A stretch of DNA of 64,000 nucleotides from [Ruminococcus] lactaris ATCC 29176 (lineage in GTDB: Bacteria > Bacillota > Clostridia > Lachnospirales > Lachnospiraceae), in NCBI RefSeq assembly GCF_025152405.1, contig NZ_CP102292.1, forward strand, positions 1,488,001 to 1,552,000. Reading direction: 5' to 3'. The translations under genes and the position numbers were made by a program. Under the pieces are notes generated by a model that did no database searches, was not told the DNA's origin, and saw only the letters and a program-made list of their open reading frames with translations. Below are positions 2,135 through 38,247 of the stretch, one piece after another (the stretch's first letter is position 1; each line of letters opens with the position of its first letter).

Positions 2135-2611
2135 TTATTCCAATCCTTCATCCACGATCAGTTCATTCCCGTCTGCCGCAGTTGTTGCAAGCTGGTCACA
2201 CCTTTCATTCTGAGGATGTCCGTCATGTCCTTTTACCCAATGGAAAGTAACCTGATGTCGGCTTTTCACTTCCAGAAGCCTTTTCCAGAGATCCACATTT
2301 TTCACCGGTTCATTCTTTCCACGTTTCCAGCTTTTTTTGATCCATCCGTCAACCCAGTGCTGGTTAAATGCATTCACCACATATTGTGAATCTGAATAAA
2401 CCTCAACCGTACATGGCAGGTTCAATGCTTCCAGTCCTGCGATTACAGCCATCAGTTCCATCCGGTTATTCGTTGTCTTCGTATAGCCCTGCGACAGTTC
2501 TTTTGTATGCAACTGTCCTTTTCCGTCCACATACTCCAGTACAGCTCCATAACCTCCCGGTCCGTCCGGATTTCCCCTTGCTGCACCATCTGTATAAACT
2601 TTTACAAGCAT
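2135..2611 (-). CDS. rnhA: Ribonuclease HI
   Basis: This 158-aa protein cleaves the RNA strand of RNA:DNA hybrids. The carboxylate active site is complete: D8 in YTDGAARGNP, E52 in NNRMEL, D74 in YSDSQYV and D139 in ERCDQLA. H129 matches the catalytic histidine of the E. coli enzyme. Length is normal for the single-domain family, with no N-terminal hybrid-binding domain. It is the last gene of a leftward run from spoIVA, 23 bp after the MBL-fold gene, and ends at the shared bidirectional terminator. Confidence 0.96.
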   Translation of the reverse strand: MLVKVYTDGAARGNPDGPGGYGAVLEYVDGKGQLHTKELSQGYTKTTNNRMELMAVIAGLEALNLPCTVEVYSDSQYVVNAFNQHWVDGWIKKSWKRGKNEPVKNVDLWKRLLEVKSRHQVTFHWVKGHDGHPQNERCDQLATTAADGNELIVDEGLE

Positions 2612-2634
2612 TTATCCGCTCCTCCTTCTTTTAT

Positions 2635-3375
2635 CTATTGCTGTAAAATGCTGCTGTACCTCACTCGGATCCTGTCATTTTCATCCATCTCATCCAACAG
2701 AAATACCTGCCCTGGCTTTTCAATCCTGACAATACGGTCTTCATAATCTTTCGCACATTTTTCCAGTGCCAGCCGGTTAAAAATACTGTAGTTTCCCCAA
2801 AAATGCATTGGGAATACTACTTTTGTTTCTGTCCTCTTCATAAAACAGTCAAGTCCCCAGCAATACTGTTCTCCCAGTCTTGGGTCTACCGGGACAAAAG
2901 CTATATCGATCTTCTCATCCATCAGACGGTTGATTTCTGCCTGATAAGCTCGACGCATCTCTGTATTTTTTTCATCCGGTTCCCCTTCCCAGTGCCACCA
3001 GTTCAGATCCCCAGCATGGTAGATCGTCTTGCCTGCATAATGAACAACAAAGGCTACTCCCTCATCCGTGGATCGAAGTGTTCTGATCTCTGCTCCCATC
3101 ACTTCCTTCTTCTCATTTGGCTGCATCTGAACGATATCTTTTTCTGCTTTTATCTCGATATCAGATGACAGAACATACCGGATCTCCCTGAAATGCTTTC
3201 TCAGATTAAAAATATCCTTTCTATAATGATCATGGTGTGCATGGCTCACAAACACAAACATCTTTTTCTCCAGATCAATCTGCGGTAATCTGCCTTTATA
3301 ATAATCAAATAAAAAATAAGCATCTTCTAATTCTACCAGAAAACCGCTGTGGTCTAAATACGTCACTTTTATCAT
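2635..3375 (-). CDS. MBL-fold metal-dependent hydrolase
   Basis: This 246-aa protein has the metallo-beta-lactamase fold signature HAHHDH (H45, H47, D49, H50) after the strand-turn TYLDHSGFLVE, a layout shared with UlaG-like lactonases and related Zn-dependent hydrolases. A further metal-ligand histidine is plausible in IYHAGDLNWW and in FPMHFWGN. The substrate cannot be read from sequence. It sits 16 bp downstream of the purine nucleoside phosphorylase gene and 23 bp upstream of rnhA, so it is probably cotranscribed with both. No signal peptide is visible, so it should be cytoplasmic. Confidence 0.85.
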   Translation of the reverse strand: MIKVTYLDHSGFLVELEDAYFLFDYYKGRLPQIDLEKKMFVFVSHAHHDHYRKDIFNLRKHFREIRYVLSSDIEIKAEKDIVQMQPNEKKEVMGAEIRTLRSTDEGVAFVVHYAGKTIYHAGDLNWWHWEGEPDEKNTEMRRAYQAEINRLMDEKIDIAFVPVDPRLGEQYCWGLDCFMKRTETKVVFPMHFWGNYSIFNRLALEKCAKDYEDRIVRIEKPGQVFLLDEMDENDRIRVRYSSILQQ

Positions 3376-10893: not shown

Positions 10894-12072
10894 ATGACAA
10901 ATATCGAAATGTTAGAAAAAACTCTCCCGGTTGCCCCACTGAAGCTGATCGCAATGGAAAGCTGTCAGGCTCTGGGACAGAAGGTCAATGATTATATTGT
11001 ATCTTTCAGGGAGAACACCATCAACGAAGTAACCGAATCCCCCTTATATATCAATTATAAGTCCAACAATTATCTGGTTGACTGCAGTTGTCCGAGATTT
11101 GGATCCGGGGAAGCAAAAGGTGTATTAAAAGAGACGATCCGGGGAACAGATCTGTTCATTATGACCGATGTATGTAATTATAGCCTTACCTATACTGTAA
11201 ATGGTCATGTAAACCATATGTCCCCAGATGACCATTATCAGGATCTCAAAAGGATCATTGCTGCTGCAACCGGAAAGGCACGCCGTATCAATGTGATCAT
11301 GCCATTCCTTTACGAAAGCAGACAGCATAAACGTACCAGAAGAGAATCTCTTGACTGTGCACTTGCCCTTGAAGAGCTTAATGCAATGGGGGTTGCCAAT
11401 ATCATTACTTTTGATGCCCATGACCCACGTGTACAGAATGCGATCCCGTTAAGTGGCTTTGACAGCTTTGACCCGCCGTATCAGTTCCTGAAGGCACTTT
11501 TCCGTGAAGTTCCTGATATCAAGCCTGATAAAGAACATCTGATGATCGTCAGCCCTGATGAGGGAGCGATGCATCGTGCGGTTTACTTTTCTAACGTACT
11601 TGGTGTTGACATGGGTATGTTCTACAAACGCCGTGATTATTCAACTGTCGTAAATGGAAAGAATCCGATCGTTGCACATGAATTTCTTGGAGATGACGTG
11701 ACCGGAAAAGATGTCATCATCGTAGACGATATGATCTCCTCCGGTGAAAGTATGCTGGATGTTGCCAAGCAGTTAAAAGAACGGAATGCCGGACGCGTTT
11801 TTGTATGCACGACTTTCGGACTTTTCACAGATGGATTTGATAAGTTTGATGAATACTATGAAAAAGGATATATCAATAAAGTGGTCACAACCAACCTGAC
11901 CTATCTGCCACCGGTACTTTATGAAAAACCATATTTCGTAAAGGCAGATATGAGTAAATTCCTTGCACTGATTATTGACTCTCTCAACCATGATGTAACC
12001 ATCGGTTCCGTTATGAATCCGACAGATAAAATCCATGCATTACTGGAGAAGCATAAAAAGGGATTGATTTAA
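10894..12072 (+). CDS. prs: Ribose-phosphate pyrophosphokinase (PRPP synthetase), long clostridial form
   Basis: This enzyme makes PRPP from ribose-5-phosphate and ATP for purine, pyrimidine, His, Trp and NAD synthesis. The PRPP-binding loop VIIVDDMISSGESM and a conserved segment around FDAHDPRVQ are visible. At 392 aa it is ~70 residues longer than the E. coli-type enzyme, as in many Lachnospiraceae. The ATG at 10894 has AGGAG eight bases ahead. The in-frame extension to 10702 only translates the MITE and is rejected. Its TAA stop (12070-12072) overlaps the first bases of element R1. Confidence 0.94.
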   Translation: MTNIEMLEKTLPVAPLKLIAMESCQALGQKVNDYIVSFRENTINEVTESPLYINYKSNNYLVDCSCPRFGSGEAKGVLKETIRGTDLFIMTDVCNYSLTYTVNGHVNHMSPDDHYQDLKRIIAAATGKARRINVIMPFLYESRQHKRTRRESLDCALALEELNAMGVANIITFDAHDPRVQNAIPLSGFDSFDPPYQFLKALFREVPDIKPDKEHLMIVSPDEGAMHRAVYFSNVLGVDMGMFYKRRDYSTVVNGKNPIVAHEFLGDDVTGKDVIIVDDMISSGESMLDVAKQLKERNAGRVFVCTTFGLFTDGFDKFDEYYEKGYINKVVTTNLTYLPPVLYEKPYFVKADMSKFLALIIDSLNHDVTIGSVMNPTDKIHALLEKHKKGLI

Positions 12073-12946
12073 ATTTGTAGTTGTTGGGGTGATACGCTTG
12101 TAAAGCAAAAGACTTCTTTATGGCGAAGCGGACGCGGAAATCAGAGATATTCCTTCGTGGTGCAGGCCCGCTTTACCTCAGCCCGTTGACCGTTTGTAAC
12201 TCGAAAGTGGAAATCTTCGTGCAATGGCACTCGATTTACTTTCTCTAACAAACGCTGCAAAGTGTCTTCGGAACGCTCCTGCTAATGCACCTGCTCAGGA
12301 ACATCCTGATTTCCGCTGACCATCTCGATAAGAAGTTTTTTAGCTCCACAGCGTATCCACCCAATAATACAAATTTAAAAACGATAAACAAAGCCGGATG
12401 GCTATTGACTAAGATATTCGATCGTAAAGATGTCGGGGGCAAAAGCCCCCGACTTTGATGCTCATATCGGGGCGGGTCCTAAGGTCTTTCACCCACCTAT
12501 GAGCAAGCTCATGTGGGCTTAGACCTTTTGATCCTGGCATCTCGTAAATATTAGACAGTAGATATGATATTTACTATTTGACAAATCCTTTATCCTGGTC
12601 GATAGCCATCCGGCTTTCTACTTCTTATTTGAAATTTCGTATTTGTTGAGAGAAAATGTCCCGGTGCGAGAAAAGCATTCTGATTTGAAAAATCCAATAT
12701 CCGCCCTTGCTGTTGCGTGAGCAGTGCATTGACAGGGAGTGTTCCGAAGACACTTTGCCCAACTTGTTAAGGAACGTAAACAGGAGTGCCTCTGCACGAG
12801 TGTTTCCACGTTCCTGTTACAAGTTGTCAACGGGCTGAGGTAAAGCGGGTCCTGCACTGCGATGCAACAGCAAGGGCGGATATGAATGTTTTTTCATCAG
12901 ATACTTTCTACTGCCGAGATATTTTCACCCCAACAACTACAAATTT
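12071..12946. mobile_element. Palindromic 756-bp element R1, interrupted by MITE copy C
   Basis: The ends are inverted repeats AAATTTGTAGTTGTTGGGG / CCCCAACAACTACAAATTT. Removing MITE C and its 7-bp duplication leaves 756 bp, the same as R2. A left foldback unit (12071-12376) and a right one (12632-12946) are diverged inverted copies. Between them AGCCGGATGGCTAT (12392-12405) pairs with ATAGCCATCCGGCT (12602-12615). No convincing reading frame is present. Both ends overlap TAA stop codons, of prs on the left and the symporter on the right. Flanking TA dinucleotides suggest a TA target, as in IS630/mariner-type elements. Confidence 0.85.
12429..12541 (+). mobile_element. MITE-like element copy C (113 bp, internally deleted) inside R1
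   Basis: It has intact ends GATGTCGGGGGCAAAAG and CTTTTGATCCTGGCATC and a perfect 7-bp duplication TCGTAAA (12422-12428, 12542-12548). About 81 bp are missing between the short repeats TTTGATG and TTTTATG, compared with copy A. The 5' hairpin GTCGGGGGC-AAAA-GCCCCCGAC is perfect. The unoccupied target is seen in R2, which shows that this is an insertion. Confidence 0.9.
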
Positions 12947-23915: not shown

Positions 23916-23960
23916 AAGCGTTGATGTTTATTTTAATGTATGACTGATAAGGAGATCATT

Positions 23961-25595
23961 ATGATTAGTGCAAATAACGTAACCCTCCGCGTCGGGAAAA
24001 AGGCGCTGTTTGAAGACGTTAATATCAAATTTACAGAAGGGAACTGCTATGGTATGATCGGTGCCAATGGTGCAGGAAAATCTACTTTCCTTAAGATTCT
24101 TTCCGGTCAGCTTGAGCCGACTCAGGGAGATGTCGTGATCACTCCGGGAGAGCGTCTTTCTTTCCTGCAGCAGGATCATTTCAAATATGATGAATTTCCG
24201 GTTCTTGATACCGTTATCATGGGAAATGCCCGCCTGTACGAGATTATGAAAGAAAAAGAAGAAATCTATGCAAAAGAAGATTTCACTGATGAAGACGGAA
24301 TCAAAGCCAGTGAACTGGAAGCTGAGTTTGCTACCATGAACGGCTGGGAGGCTGAATCGGATGCTGCCAACCTTCTGAACGGACTCGGAATTGATACCGA
24401 ACTTCACTACAAATACCTGAAAGAACTGACCGGATCTGAAAAGGTAAAGGTTCTGCTTGCCCAGGCATTATTTGGAAATCCCGACATCCTGCTTCTTGAC
24501 GAGCCAACGAACCACCTGGATCTCGATGCCATTGCATGGCTGGAAGAATTTCTTATCAATTTTGATAATACCGTCATCGTCGTATCTCATGACCGTTATT
24601 TTCTGAATAAAGTATGTACACAGATTGCAGATATTGATTACGGTAAGATCCAGCTCTATGCCGGAAACTATGATTTCTGGTATGAATCCAGCCAGCTCCT
24701 CATCCGTCAGATGAAAGAAGCTAATAAGAAAAAAGAAGAAAAGATCAAAGAACTTCAGGACTTTATTTCCCGGTTCAGTGCCAATGCTTCCAAATCCAAG
24801 CAGGCAACATCCAGGAAACGTGCTCTTGAAAAGATCCAGCTTGATGAGATCAAGCCATCCAGCCGTAAATATCCATACATCGACTTCCGTCCGAACCGTG
24901 AAATTGGAAATGAAGTCCTGACCGTAGAAGGACTTTCCAAGACCATCGACGGAGAAAAAATCCTTGATAATATCAGCTTTACTCTTGGACGTGAAGATAA
25001 AGTTGCTTTTGTCGGAGGCAATGAATTTGCAAAGTCGATCCTCTTTAAGATCCTGATCGGTGAAATGGAACCGGATGAAGGGACTTACAAATGGGGCGTT
25101 ACAACCTCTCAGGCTTATTTCCCGAAAGATTTCGGTGGAGAATTTGATAATGATTATAATATCACAGAATGGCTGACTCAGTATTCTGAAGAGAAAGATG
25201 TTACTTATGTCCGTGGTTTCCTCGGAAGAATGCTTTTTTCAGGGGAAGATGGAGTGAAAAAGGTTGCTGTCCTTTCCGGTGGCGAAAAAGTTCGCTGCCT
25301 CCTCTCCAAAATGATGATCTCAGGTGCAAATGTCCTGCTCCTCGATGAGCCGACCAACCACCTGGACATGGAATCCATCACTGCACTCAATAACGGACTG
25401 ATCAAGTTCCCGGGAGTCCTGCTCTTCACATCCCGTGACCATCAGATCGTACAGACGACCGCAAACCGCATTATGGAAATCGTTCCGGGTGGTAAACTTA
25501 TTGATAAGATCACGACTTACGATGAATATCTTGAAAGCGATGAGATGGCAAGAAAGAGACAGACCTATTCTGTACAGACAGATGATGAAGATTAA
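23961..25595 (+). CDS. ABC-F family ATPase (YkpA/YbiT-like)
   Basis: This 544-aa protein has two ABC domains without membrane segments, the mark of ribosome-associated ABC-F factors that act on stalled or antibiotic-bound ribosomes. The first Walker A GANGAGKS is at 34-41. The second is degenerate (GGNEFAKS, Ala in place of Gly before Lys). The first signature is LTGSEKVK and the second LSGGEKVR, and both domains have DEPTNHLD Walker B. A linker between them carries Lys-rich helices. The ATG at 23961 has AAGGAG ahead. The frame from 23940 contains that site and is rejected. Its stop overlaps the left end of R2. Confidence 0.93.
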   Translation: MISANNVTLRVGKKALFEDVNIKFTEGNCYGMIGANGAGKSTFLKILSGQLEPTQGDVVITPGERLSFLQQDHFKYDEFPVLDTVIMGNARLYEIMKEKEEIYAKEDFTDEDGIKASELEAEFATMNGWEAESDAANLLNGLGIDTELHYKYLKELTGSEKVKVLLAQALFGNPDILLLDEPTNHLDLDAIAWLEEFLINFDNTVIVVSHDRYFLNKVCTQIADIDYGKIQLYAGNYDFWYESSQLLIRQMKEANKKKEEKIKELQDFISRFSANASKSKQATSRKRALEKIQLDEIKPSSRKYPYIDFRPNREIGNEVLTVEGLSKTIDGEKILDNISFTLGREDKVAFVGGNEFAKSILFKILIGEMEPDEGTYKWGVTTSQAYFPKDFGGEFDNDYNITEWLTQYSEEKDVTYVRGFLGRMLFSGEDGVKKVAVLSGGEKVRCLLSKMMISGANVLLLDEPTNHLDMESITALNNGLIKFPGVLLFTSRDHQIVQTTANRIMEIVPGGKLIDKITTYDEYLESDEMARKRQTYSVQTDDED

Positions 25596-26350
25596 AATTT
25601 GTAGTTGTTGGGGTGATACGCTTGTAAAGAAAAAGACTTCTTTATAGCGAATCGGACGCGGAAAGTAGGGATATTCCTTCGCGGTGCAGGCCCGCTTTAC
25701 CTCAGCCCGTTGACCGTTTGTAACTCGAAAGTGGAAATCTTCGTGCAATGGCACTCGATTTACTTTCTCTAACAAACGCTGCAAAGTGTCTTCGGAACGC
25801 TCCCTGCTAATGCACCTGCTCAGGAACACCCTGCTTTCCGCTGACCATCTCGATAAGAAGTTTTTTAGCTCCACAGCGTATCCACCCAATAATACAAATT
25901 TAAAAACGACAAAAAAGCCGGATGGCTATTGACTAAGATATTCGATAGTAAATATTAGACAGTAGATATGATATTTACTATTTGACAAATCCTTTATCCT
26001 GGTCGATAGCCATCCGGCTTTCTACTTCTTATTTGAAATTTCGTGTTTGTTGAGAGAAATGTCCCGGTGCGAGAAAAGCATTCTGATTTGAAAAATCCAA
26101 TATCCGCCCTTGCTGTTGCGTGAGCAGTGCATTGACAGGGAGCGTTCCGAAGACACTTTGCCCAACTTGTTAAGGAACGTAAACAGGAGTGCCTCTGCAC
26201 GAGTGTTTCCACGTTCCTGTTACAAGTTGTCAACGGGCTGAGGTAAAGCGGGTCCTGCACTGCGATGCAACAACAAGGGCGGATATGAACGTTTTTTTCA
26301 TCAGATACTTTCTACTGCCGAGATATTTTCTCCCCAACAACTACAAATTT
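25595..26350. mobile_element. Palindromic 756-bp element R2 (uninterrupted reference copy)
   Basis: This is the intact member of the family. Left unit 25595-25901 and right unit 26036-26350 each begin and end with versions of AAATTTGTAGTTGTTGG in opposite orientation. Each can fold on itself into a long imperfect hairpin with a GTGC-N4-GCAC tip (loops AATG and AGAG). The two units are inverted relatives; GCAAAGTGTCTTCGGAACG is shared almost exactly. The central stem AGCCGGATGGCTAT (25916-25929) pairs with 26006-26019. The ends overlap the stop codons of the ABC-F and DegV genes. Frames inside are judged non-coding. Confidence 0.86.
25916..26023. terminator. Central stem of R2, possible bidirectional terminator
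   Basis: Perfect 14-bp arms (25916-25929 and 26006-26019) are bordered by AAAAAA on the left and TTTCT on the right, and a nested TAGTAAATAT...ATATTTACTA stem lies in the loop. Because R2 sits between two convergent genes with no other hairpin, it may supply their transcription end. The loop is long (76 nt), so efficiency is uncertain. Confidence 0.4.
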
Positions 26351-27206
26351 ATACTCTCTTCATGCAGGTAATCGCCATCGCTCCCGGTCCAATATGGCAT
26401 GCAATGCTCAGTGACAGCGGACCTTCTACCAGTTCGTAATCCGGAAAACGGGTCTGGATTTCATTTTTCCACTCATCTGCTTCTTCTTTGCTGCACGTAT
26501 ATGCCATTCCGAGAACCATCTGATCTTTTACATCTGCAAAACGGTCTGTCAGATCTTTTTCAATGGCATTGAGCATCGTCTTCTTCGCTGCCTTCCAGCC
26601 TCTGACTTTTGCAAATGCATCCAGCTTCTCTCCCTGGATCTGAAGAACCGGCTTTAAATTCAATACCGTTCCTATAGCTGCTGCTGCCGGAGTGATTCTT
26701 CCACCCTTTTTCAGATACTTCAACGTATCTACTGTGATATAGATACTTGCCTGCATTTTTTCTTTTTCCAGCACCTGTCTGATCTCTGCGGCAGATTTTC
26801 CCTCATCACGCAGCTTGATCGCATCGTATACTGACTGTTCCTGCGTAACGGAAATTCTCTGATTATTTACAACCTGCACTTTTTCATCATAATCCTGTGC
26901 CAGTGAAAGAGCCGTTTCGCAGGTACTGCTCAGACCACTTGACATCGGAATGCACACAATTTCATCATAATCCTCTAAAAGCTTATCCCACAGATCCATG
27001 ACATCTCCCGGCGATGGCTGAGATGTGGAAATTTCAGAATCAGCTCCCAGTTTTTCATAGAACTGTTCCTGTGAAAGTGTAATATCTTCTAAATATAATT
27101 CACCGTCAATGAAAAACGGCATCGGAAGCACGTAGATCCCCAGTTCTTCACCCCGCTTCTGCGTAATTCCGCTATTGCTGTCCGTTACTATTGCAACTTT
27201 ACTCAT
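26349..27206 (-). CDS. DegV family fatty-acid-binding protein
   Basis: The 285-aa protein has the family's opening VAIVTDSNSGI, the central IPMSSGLSSTCE fatty-acid pocket motif and the C-terminal CHIGPGAMAI. DegV/FakB proteins hold a fatty acid that the kinase FakA phosphorylates for phospholipid synthesis. No fakA is in this window. Its stop codon overlaps the right end of R2. It follows the PFL-family gene after a 79-bp gap on the same strand. Confidence 0.93.
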   Translation of the reverse strand: MSKVAIVTDSNSGITQKRGEELGIYVLPMPFFIDGELYLEDITLSQEQFYEKLGADSEISTSQPSPGDVMDLWDKLLEDYDEIVCIPMSSGLSSTCETALSLAQDYDEKVQVVNNQRISVTQEQSVYDAIKLRDEGKSAAEIRQVLEKEKMQASIYITVDTLKYLKKGGRITPAAAAIGTVLNLKPVLQIQGEKLDAFAKVRGWKAAKKTMLNAIEKDLTDRFADVKDQMVLGMAYTCSKEEADEWKNEIQTRFPDYELVEGPLSLSIACHIGPGAMAITCMKRV

Positions 27207-37420: not shown

Positions 37421-38247
37421 AGATTTGTATTTGTTGGGGTGATACGCTTGTAAAGCAAAAGACTTCTTTATGGCGAAGCGGACGCGGAAAGCAGGATATT
37501 TCTTCGCGGTGCAGGCCCGCTTTACCTCAGCCCGCTGACCATCTCGATAAGAAATTTTTAGCTCCACAGCGTATTCACTCAACAATGCAAATTTAAAAAG
37601 AATAGAAAAAAGCCGGATGGCTATTGACTAAGATATTCGATCGTAAATATTAGACAGTAGATATTGTATTTACTAGATGCCAGGGGCAAAAGGTCTAAGC
37701 CCACATGAGCTTGCTCATAGGTGGGTGAAAGACCTTAGGACCCGCCCCGATATGAGCATAAAAGTGGGATGATAATCCCACGATATGCGAATATTCGGTA
37801 GGATTGTGGGAGTGCCGTAGCACGGAGCAATCCGTAGGCATCAAAGTCGGGGGCTTTTGCCCCCGACATCTTTACTATTGGACAGATCATTTATCTTAGT
37901 CGATAGCCATCCGGCTTTCTACTTCTTATTTGAAATTTCGTATTTGTTGAAAGAAAATGTCCCGGTGCGAGAAAAGCATTCTGATTTGAAAAATCCAATA
38001 TCCGCCTTTGCTGTTGCGTGAGCAGTGCATTGACAGGGAGCGTTCCGAAGACACTTTGCTCAACTTGTTAAGGAACGTAAACAGGAGTGCCTCTGCACGA
38101 GTGTTTCCACGTTCCTGTTACAAGTTGTCAACGGGCTGAGGTAAAGCGGGTCCTGCACTGCGATGCAACAACAAGGGCGGATATGAACGTTTTTTCATCA
38201 GATACTTTCTACTGCCGAGATATTTTCTCCCCAACAACTACAAATTT
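37421..38247. mobile_element. Palindromic element R3, left unit deleted and interrupted by MITE copy E
   Basis: Without MITE E and its 7-bp duplication this copy is 625 bp. The right unit (37933-38247) is full length (315 bp). The left unit (37421-37594) lacks ~130 bp between two TGACC-containing sites (the core and its GTGC tip), consistent with deletion between short direct repeats. The central stem is intact (37611-37624 with 37903-37916). The left terminus is diverged (AGATTTGTATTTGTTGGGG). The right end overlaps the gpmI stop codon. Confidence 0.84.
37676..37870 (-). mobile_element. MITE-like element copy E (195 bp) inside R3
   Basis: It has family ends GATGCCAGGGGCAAAAG and (complement) GATGTCGGGGGCAAAAG and a perfect 7-bp duplication TTTACTA (37669-37675, 37871-37877). 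It lies in the loop of the central stem of R3, in the opposite orientation to copy C and at a different base, so it is an independent insertion. It is subfamily 1, with the stem GTGC-TACG-GCAC retained. Confidence 0.92.

Follow-up and report, generated by a model that had tools for sequence, protein, structure and literature searches.

The 756-bp repeat R2, at positions 25595-26350 of the window (the whole analysed stretch of 64,000 nucleotides from [Ruminococcus] lactaris ATCC 29176), is in our reading a copy of a mobile, non-autonomous foldback element from Mediterraneibacter, which would spread as a whole, serve as a 3ʹ boundary of genes and be kept as folded DNA. We give this reading a probability of about 0.55. 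Compared with known non-autonomous foldback repeats, its pairing pattern and its placement at stop codons are surprising, and the combination is a rare one: a giant two-module palindrome, covariation nearly free of wobble pairs on one strand, and flush placement at convergent stop codons.

R2 could be read directly in the sequence as a composite of two inverted foldback units of 307 bp and 315 bp, as a preliminary description made from the sequence alone had proposed, with a spacer of 134 bp between them. Both units begin and end with AAATTT; each has its own inverted ends (AAATTTG...CAAATTT) and a GTGC-N4-GCAC tip, as had also been described, each is able to fold alone, and the two are related in inverted orientation. 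The long hairpins suggested earlier were borne out by fold energies far under those of shuffled sequences: -353.9 kcal/mol for the whole R2 (z -24.3 versus 20 shuffles), z -8.0 for unit L, and z -9.5 on the + strand and -9.7 on the - strand for unit R. The inverted-repeat search gave two pairs of arms for the whole R2, 25691-25756 with 26187-26252 (83%) and 25759-25815 with 26127-26183 (82%), and arms within unit R at 26100-26119 with 26267-26286 (95%). The central stem is likewise present, but its arms are 27 nt long (25914-25940 with 25995-26021, 89%) and not 14 bp as originally given. A- and T-rich stretches flank this spacer hairpin, as in a bidirectional terminator, with a T-run that is good on the - strand and weak on the + strand. 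Judging from these features, the hairpin probably acts as a bidirectional terminator; it was not flagged by a simple terminator scan, the loop limit of which was 8. No coding capacity was found in R2, since the sole ORF of at least 90 aa reaching into it, besides the flanking genes, is antisense to the ABC-F gene. The features of R2 and its flanks are as follows.

23940..25595, + strand: flanking ABC-F ATPase gene, with the stop codon placed as in relative G008
25595..25901, + strand: R2 unit L, 307 bp, starting inside the ABC-F stop codon (TA/A)
25691..25805, + strand: R2 unit L core, 110.0 bits with the core covariance model, itself among the 30 cores from which the model was built
25902..26035, no strand assigned: R2 spacer with a hairpin like a bidirectional terminator, arms 25914-25940 / 25995-26021 and a long loop
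26036..26350, - strand: R2 unit R, 315 bp, the outer end doubling as the final AA of the DegV stop codon (T/AA)
26137..26252, - strand: R2 unit R core, 104.3 bits with the core covariance model
26349..27206, - strand: flanking DegV-family gene, with a C-terminus as long as in relative G007

We searched the genome (2.73 Mb, a single contig) with R2 and merged the matches into 37 spans, which confirmed a repeat family with 19 near-full-length copies including R2; the other 18 are 87-96% identical to R2, and a 71-bp remnant at 479825 lies outside the 37 spans. Because there are 19 near-full-length copies in one genome, the structure of R2 is not a matter of chance. Two of the spans, R1 and R3, are also in the window, the latter having escaped the preliminary description, as had the identity of the insertion in R1 as a truncated Clostridiales-1 repeat. 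Without its insertion R1 does measure 756 bp, in line with the earlier remark (876 bp minus 120 bp, that is, 113 bp of inserted repeat and a 7-bp duplication). Unit L of R3 has an internal deletion of 122 bp.

12071..12946, + strand: R1, second copy, between convergent genes; cores at 12167-12281 (+) and 12734-12849 (-)
12428..12542, - strand: truncated Clostridiales-1 (RF01699) insertion in the centre of R1, an Rfam match
37423..38247, + strand: R3, third copy, between co-directional genes with GreA to the left; core at 38035-38150 (-)
37675..37843, + strand: full Clostridiales-1 (RF01699) insertion in the centre of R3, an Rfam match

By eye, the cores of unit L and unit R are unlike each other and each is near-uniform among the copies, which suggests that the composite spreads whole.

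With respect to the nearest ORF, 22 of the 37 spans were placed between convergent genes, the exceptions including copies that stand between co-directional genes, such as R3. Convergent junctions made up 29/354 (8%) in a 464-kb sample of the genome treated with a different, crude gene finder; the 27 of them without the element had a median spacer of 196 bp, with 3 at 2 bp or less. The gaps at element ends were analysed for 29 of the 37 spans (8 truncated or ragged ones were left out). A gene 3ʹ end was found at most 200 bp away from 43 of the 58 intact ends, with a gap of -2 in 17 cases, -1 in 5 and 0 in 1, the other 20 ranging from -10 to 138, and both gaps were at most 11 in 14 of the 18 spans that have gene 3ʹ ends on both sides. 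The same was seen in relatives: of 22 ends whose terminal repeat could be recognised, 20 faced a gene 3ʹ end, with gaps of -2 to 0 in 17 cases (two of the 22 stem from one site in sister species). The genes were untruncated where we compared them, namely at the ABC-F stop codon and at the DegV end, and the stop codon shares its As with the element end. Such two-sided flush placement at stop codons is not expected of an ordinary insertion. In G008 and G007 the ABC-F stop codon is directly followed by other foldback sequences without an R2-type core (L089, L096).

Each unit contains a folded core of about 115 nt. Such cores occur across Mediterraneibacter, and one further genus of the family has them too. 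We take the genus to be Mediterraneibacter because 14 of 28 loci from relatives matched named records without a difference over more than 1200 bases, a G007 locus, for instance, matching M. glycyrrhizinilyticus An427. The Blast survey took in 60 related genomes, 36 from the same genus and 24 from other families of the order; part of R2 was present in 19 of the former and in none of the latter. Under strict filters, 392 genomes of the order gave 6 with a match to the core covariance model: this genome, four of the genus and one from the other genus of the family. The core positions and scores listed above come from a run of the model on 86 chosen sources. At most 8 candidates per genome were scored in the Blast survey and at most 9 in the covariance model survey, so the copy numbers in relatives are lower bounds. 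An exact core pattern occurred in 61 stretches of the named genome collection, under the titles Mediterraneibacter, Lachnoclostridium, Ruminococcus, Lachnospiraceae and Eubacteriales, and was absent from the viral contigs scanned. Relatives also have inverted unit pairs around a spacer, the sequence of which differs; in the other genus we saw single units of about 240 bp which, by eye, read in the direction of the adjoining ending gene at 4 of 4 loci.

The core is strongly covarying. Among 104 distinct cores, the 29 consensus pairs were formed in 96.4% of cells, and double changes were found at 24 of the 29 pairs, in 617 cells compared with 188 in shuffles. The covariation score was 0.497, versus 0.121 for shuffled data and at most 0.099 with the partner slid. 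Fitting the alignment of the 104 cores to the model works in favour of the structure; the free alignment A1, with 28 cores, agrees (27/37 pairs). The internal loops have conserved sequence (GCTTTACCTCA opposite TTCGGAACG, and TAAC opposite CTAA), as does the tip (CGTNCANNGNACTC), and the mismatched loops are conserved within the genus and in part in the other genus.

The kind of changes bears on whether DNA or RNA is folded. In RNA families, single-sided changes via G-U pairs are common. In the cores, one-sided changes numbered 11 versus the 617 double ones, compared with 5 versus 20 in a TPP riboswitch control (29 sequences of the genus, with two further pairs that are nearly always G-U), a set less diverged (85% mean column identity) than the cores (75%, alignment A3). 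In minimum-energy folds of the sense strand, GT pairs made up 52/3780 (1.4%) in the cores, 91/801 (11.4%) in the TPP set and 31/312 (9.9%) in 13 tRNAs. In folds of the reverse strand of the cores they made up 258/3889 (6.6%), which is not clearly different from the RNA controls. On the consensus pairs, wobbles were present in 93 of 3494 cells for the reverse strand, 46 of them at one tip pair, and in 14 for the sense strand. A strand test on the union of folds in 34 clusters, which includes pairs found in the fold of one strand alone, gave 64 AC versus 17 GT; on consensus pairs alone, the difference was 17 versus 5, or 9 versus 5 when one tip pair was left out. The scarcity of wobble on the sense strand fits a folding DNA strand better than a sense RNA. 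The reverse-strand count leaves an RNA made from the bottom strand less disfavoured and weakens a DNA-only reading.

These counts have to be set against two readings that do without folded mobile DNA. According to one, which we find unlikely although it deserves to be taken seriously, the unit is a structured RNA in the 3ʹ UTR of the upstream gene or in a transcript of the opposite strand, and the composite amounts to two RNAs sharing a bidirectional terminator, with both convergent mRNAs ending alike. The order of stop codon, unit and terminator-like hairpin (terminators by eye) agrees with this, as do the compensatory changes that preserve the fold together with conserved internal loops, and the frequency of GT pairs in the reverse-strand folds is nearer to that of the RNA controls. 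The cores of relatives were read in the direction of their upstream neighbour in 73 of 94 cases (101 cores were kept after dropping those with the same sequence and flank, and 94 had an upstream neighbour); however, the neighbour pointed the opposite way for the other 21, and in the composite the sense orientation follows from its symmetry. A structured RNA is further disfavoured by a sense-strand wobble frequency 7-8 times lower than that of TPP riboswitches and tRNAs, by the near lack of one-sided changes and by the lack of an Rfam match at cut-off. Alternatively, and with a lower probability still, there was no transposition: old terminator-like palindromes were spread or homogenised by recombination and gene conversion, and the paired changes stem from template switching (quasi-palindrome correction). 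Template switching in a hairpin alters both arms at once, with no wobble intermediates, so the pattern in the cores is what it predicts; also in its favour are the absence of a target duplication and the fact that G007 and G008 have differing foldback sequences at one and the same ABC-F 3ʹ junction. Yet template switching should erase mismatched loops, and these are conserved, as described above. Moreover, orthologous junctions in relatives have no core, and gene conversion requires a resident copy, which leaves new sites unexplained.

For the mobile foldback element that we prefer, movement is suggested by the copy number and by relatives without the element. The conserved convergent gene pairs at 1483480 and 2227635 hold the element here, and neither the core nor the end motif was found between them in G008, G034 and G020 (6/6 loci). 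By eye, five of these empty junctions measured 85-174 bp from flank to flank and the sixth, which has other palindromes, 480 bp; at both sites in this genome the element seems to have taken the place of an ordinary spacer. In four fragments of another strain, the element occupies the same sites. We saw no target-site duplication, as flush direct repeats averaged 0.55 base in true pairs and 0.46 in mismatched ones (29 spans). The preliminary description had left room for a known coding transposon as the parent of R2; none with these ends was found in this genome, where 67 of 68 end matches were known copies of the element and no transposase gene with such ends was seen, and we rejected a deletion derivative of this kind. 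The element can enclose other genes: at one junction, between an acyltransferase-like and a symporter-like gene, units L and R bracket different cargo in four loci of relatives.

L198, L206, L224, L230, cargo at the hotspot junction (names by eye): a CPBP-type protease; or a DUF2000-like and a CPBP-type gene; or a RelE/RelB-like pair and a DUF2000-like gene (two loci)

Two candidates for a mobilising enzyme were weighed. REPINs are pairs of inverted REPs, and they are mobilised by RAYT, a Y1 transposase acting on single-stranded hairpins; that R2 belongs to this type appears very improbable to us. The likeness lies in palindromic units at gene ends, often convergent ones, and in their inverted pairing; in PMC3733652, REPs are described as lying mostly between unidirectional and convergent genes. 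The difference lies in the unit size, about 300 bp versus 20-40 bp, in the ends, which have no conserved GTAG tag (GTAG, GTAT, GTGG, GTAA and GTGT were seen), and in the RAYT of the genus, which was not found in this genome. A search here with a RAYT query, run without a positive control, gave no match, and a search for the Y1 family gave only one Y1 protein of 159 aa. Many genomes of the genus do have a long, RAYT-like Y1 gene; by hand count, these are 15 of 20 genomes with the element versus 8 or 9 of 17 without it. In relatives, 17 of the 20 loci examined have a RAYT-like gene adjoining glyS and an aminopeptidase-like gene (L298-L304, L306-L310, L312-L316), a location that is conserved in many Mediterraneibacter genomes. 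The GGGACGTAGT-type palindromes that flank the gene in 15 of 18 loci inspected bear, by eye, no resemblance to the element; in these 15 loci the palindromes are likewise of the GGGACGTAGTAAAAT type. The element may thus work somewhat like a REPIN, but we do not class it as one. The other candidate is Rpn, with element-Rpn-element as the autonomous form. All six Rpn genes found in this genome (172315, 478748, 515265, 782202, 844067 and 2166199) lie between copies of the element, some of which are truncated; they share the sequence at the 5ʹ junction and vary in their C-terminal stretches; the one that was searched matched Transposase_31, and related proteins have been described as recombination-promoting nucleases. 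Nevertheless, none of 29 Rpn-containing loci of relatives (flanks of about 1.5 kb, some cut by contig ends) had the core or the end motif, so we rejected Rpn as a stable partner, and most elements of this genome have no adjoining Rpn. As the mobilising enzyme Rpn is thus hardly credible.

The element was not recognised in catalogues either. No Rfam family reached the gathering score on R2; sub-threshold matches on the central stem and around the end of the ABC-F gene were to plant microRNA, snoRNA, Listeria sRNA and CRISPR-repeat families, and a catalogued RNA was rejected. Plasmid records gave no match to R2. Four records named 'Bacteriophage sp.' (MT839411, MT839318, MT838801 and MT838007) did match, with one end in the foldback repeat, and they were 98.9-99.8% identical to the genome over 2198-3009 compared bases; they are pieces of the chromosome of this bacterium, and a phage origin was rejected. 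In the literature on bacterial foldback, palindromic and MITE-like repeats at gene ends we found no such element described. The earlier remark that no described element of this build was known holds for these sources, and no catalogued repeat was found for R2 in Rfam, plasmid or phage records. Taken as a whole, the preliminary interpretation was sound on the anatomy and on the absence from catalogues, and it missed the core, the placement, the terminator-like nature of the central hairpin and the DNA-like pairing.

Among known systems, eukaryotic foldback (FB/TU) elements have long inverted arms that fold back around a loop in which cargo is possible. In general build R2 resembles them in its arms, its folding and its possible cargo, and differs in being bacterial and in having arms that are foldbacks in their own right, with a conserved core in each. 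Integron attC sites recombine as folded single strands, conserve structure over sequence and stand beside stop codons; in these general features the element is similar, being structured and often adjacent to stop codons. MITEs, according to PMC10969869, have terminal inverted repeats, many copies, intergenic locations and stem-loop folding, and the element shares all of these. It is nonetheless distinct from a MITE, as neither a target-site duplication nor a parent transposon with the same ends was found in the genome, and it consists of 756 bp in two inverted structured units placed at stop codons.

We propose that two inverted structured modules flank a bidirectional terminator or, in some copies, cargo DNA, and that the whole would spread in the genome as one unit. 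It would settle at gene 3ʹ ends, chiefly between convergent genes, often starting at the stop codon and taking over as the 3ʹ boundary and terminator. The modules may be maintained as a folded DNA strand, either a single-stranded hairpin or a cruciform, because a trans-acting protein must recognise them in order to move or copy the element; recognition as folded DNA, with the mobilising enzyme supplied in trans, is what we infer. To account for flush placement on both sides, the element could have entered between stop codons that already touched and been retained for its terminator. A further-reaching version, namely that this is a new class of bacterial mobile DNA whose inverted modules serve an enzyme as folded single strands, which enters precisely at stop codons, replaces the convergent spacer and can carry genes, is put forward tentatively and would need some luck to be right in every part. 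If the element does move as folded DNA, an enzyme with an unusual choice of target awaits discovery in common gut bacteria.

Clostridiales-1 (RF01699; PMC2864571), which has at least 44 matches in this genome, is a palindromic repeat in many copies like the R2-type element, and a separate one, which inserts into the latter with 7-bp duplications. Its insertions in the foldback centres were at two separate points and in opposite orientations, with the duplications TTTACTA and TCGTAAA, R2 serving as the empty site for comparison. Further insertions in foldback centres are at 505188, 845139, 1239045, 2103948 and 2227635. At 750786 and 912594, a transposase-like gene adjoins Clostridiales-1 in the centre of the element; the one at 750786 matched DDE_3 in a profile search of that copy, and we take both to be IS630-like. 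With its many copies and these duplications, the Clostridiales-1 RNA looks like a MITE. Its frequency of GT pairs (8/237 in 4 copies; 39/844 by the union of folds in 14 copies) is intermediate between the foldback cores and the RNA controls. Covariation alone can file palindromic DNA repeats as structured RNAs, Clostridiales-1 being a case with transposon-like duplications. We also noticed that the foldback copy at 2103948-2104906 stands between the arms of an inverted repeat (gtcaagaggg / ccctcttgac), an arrangement that looks like entry into a hairpin loop.
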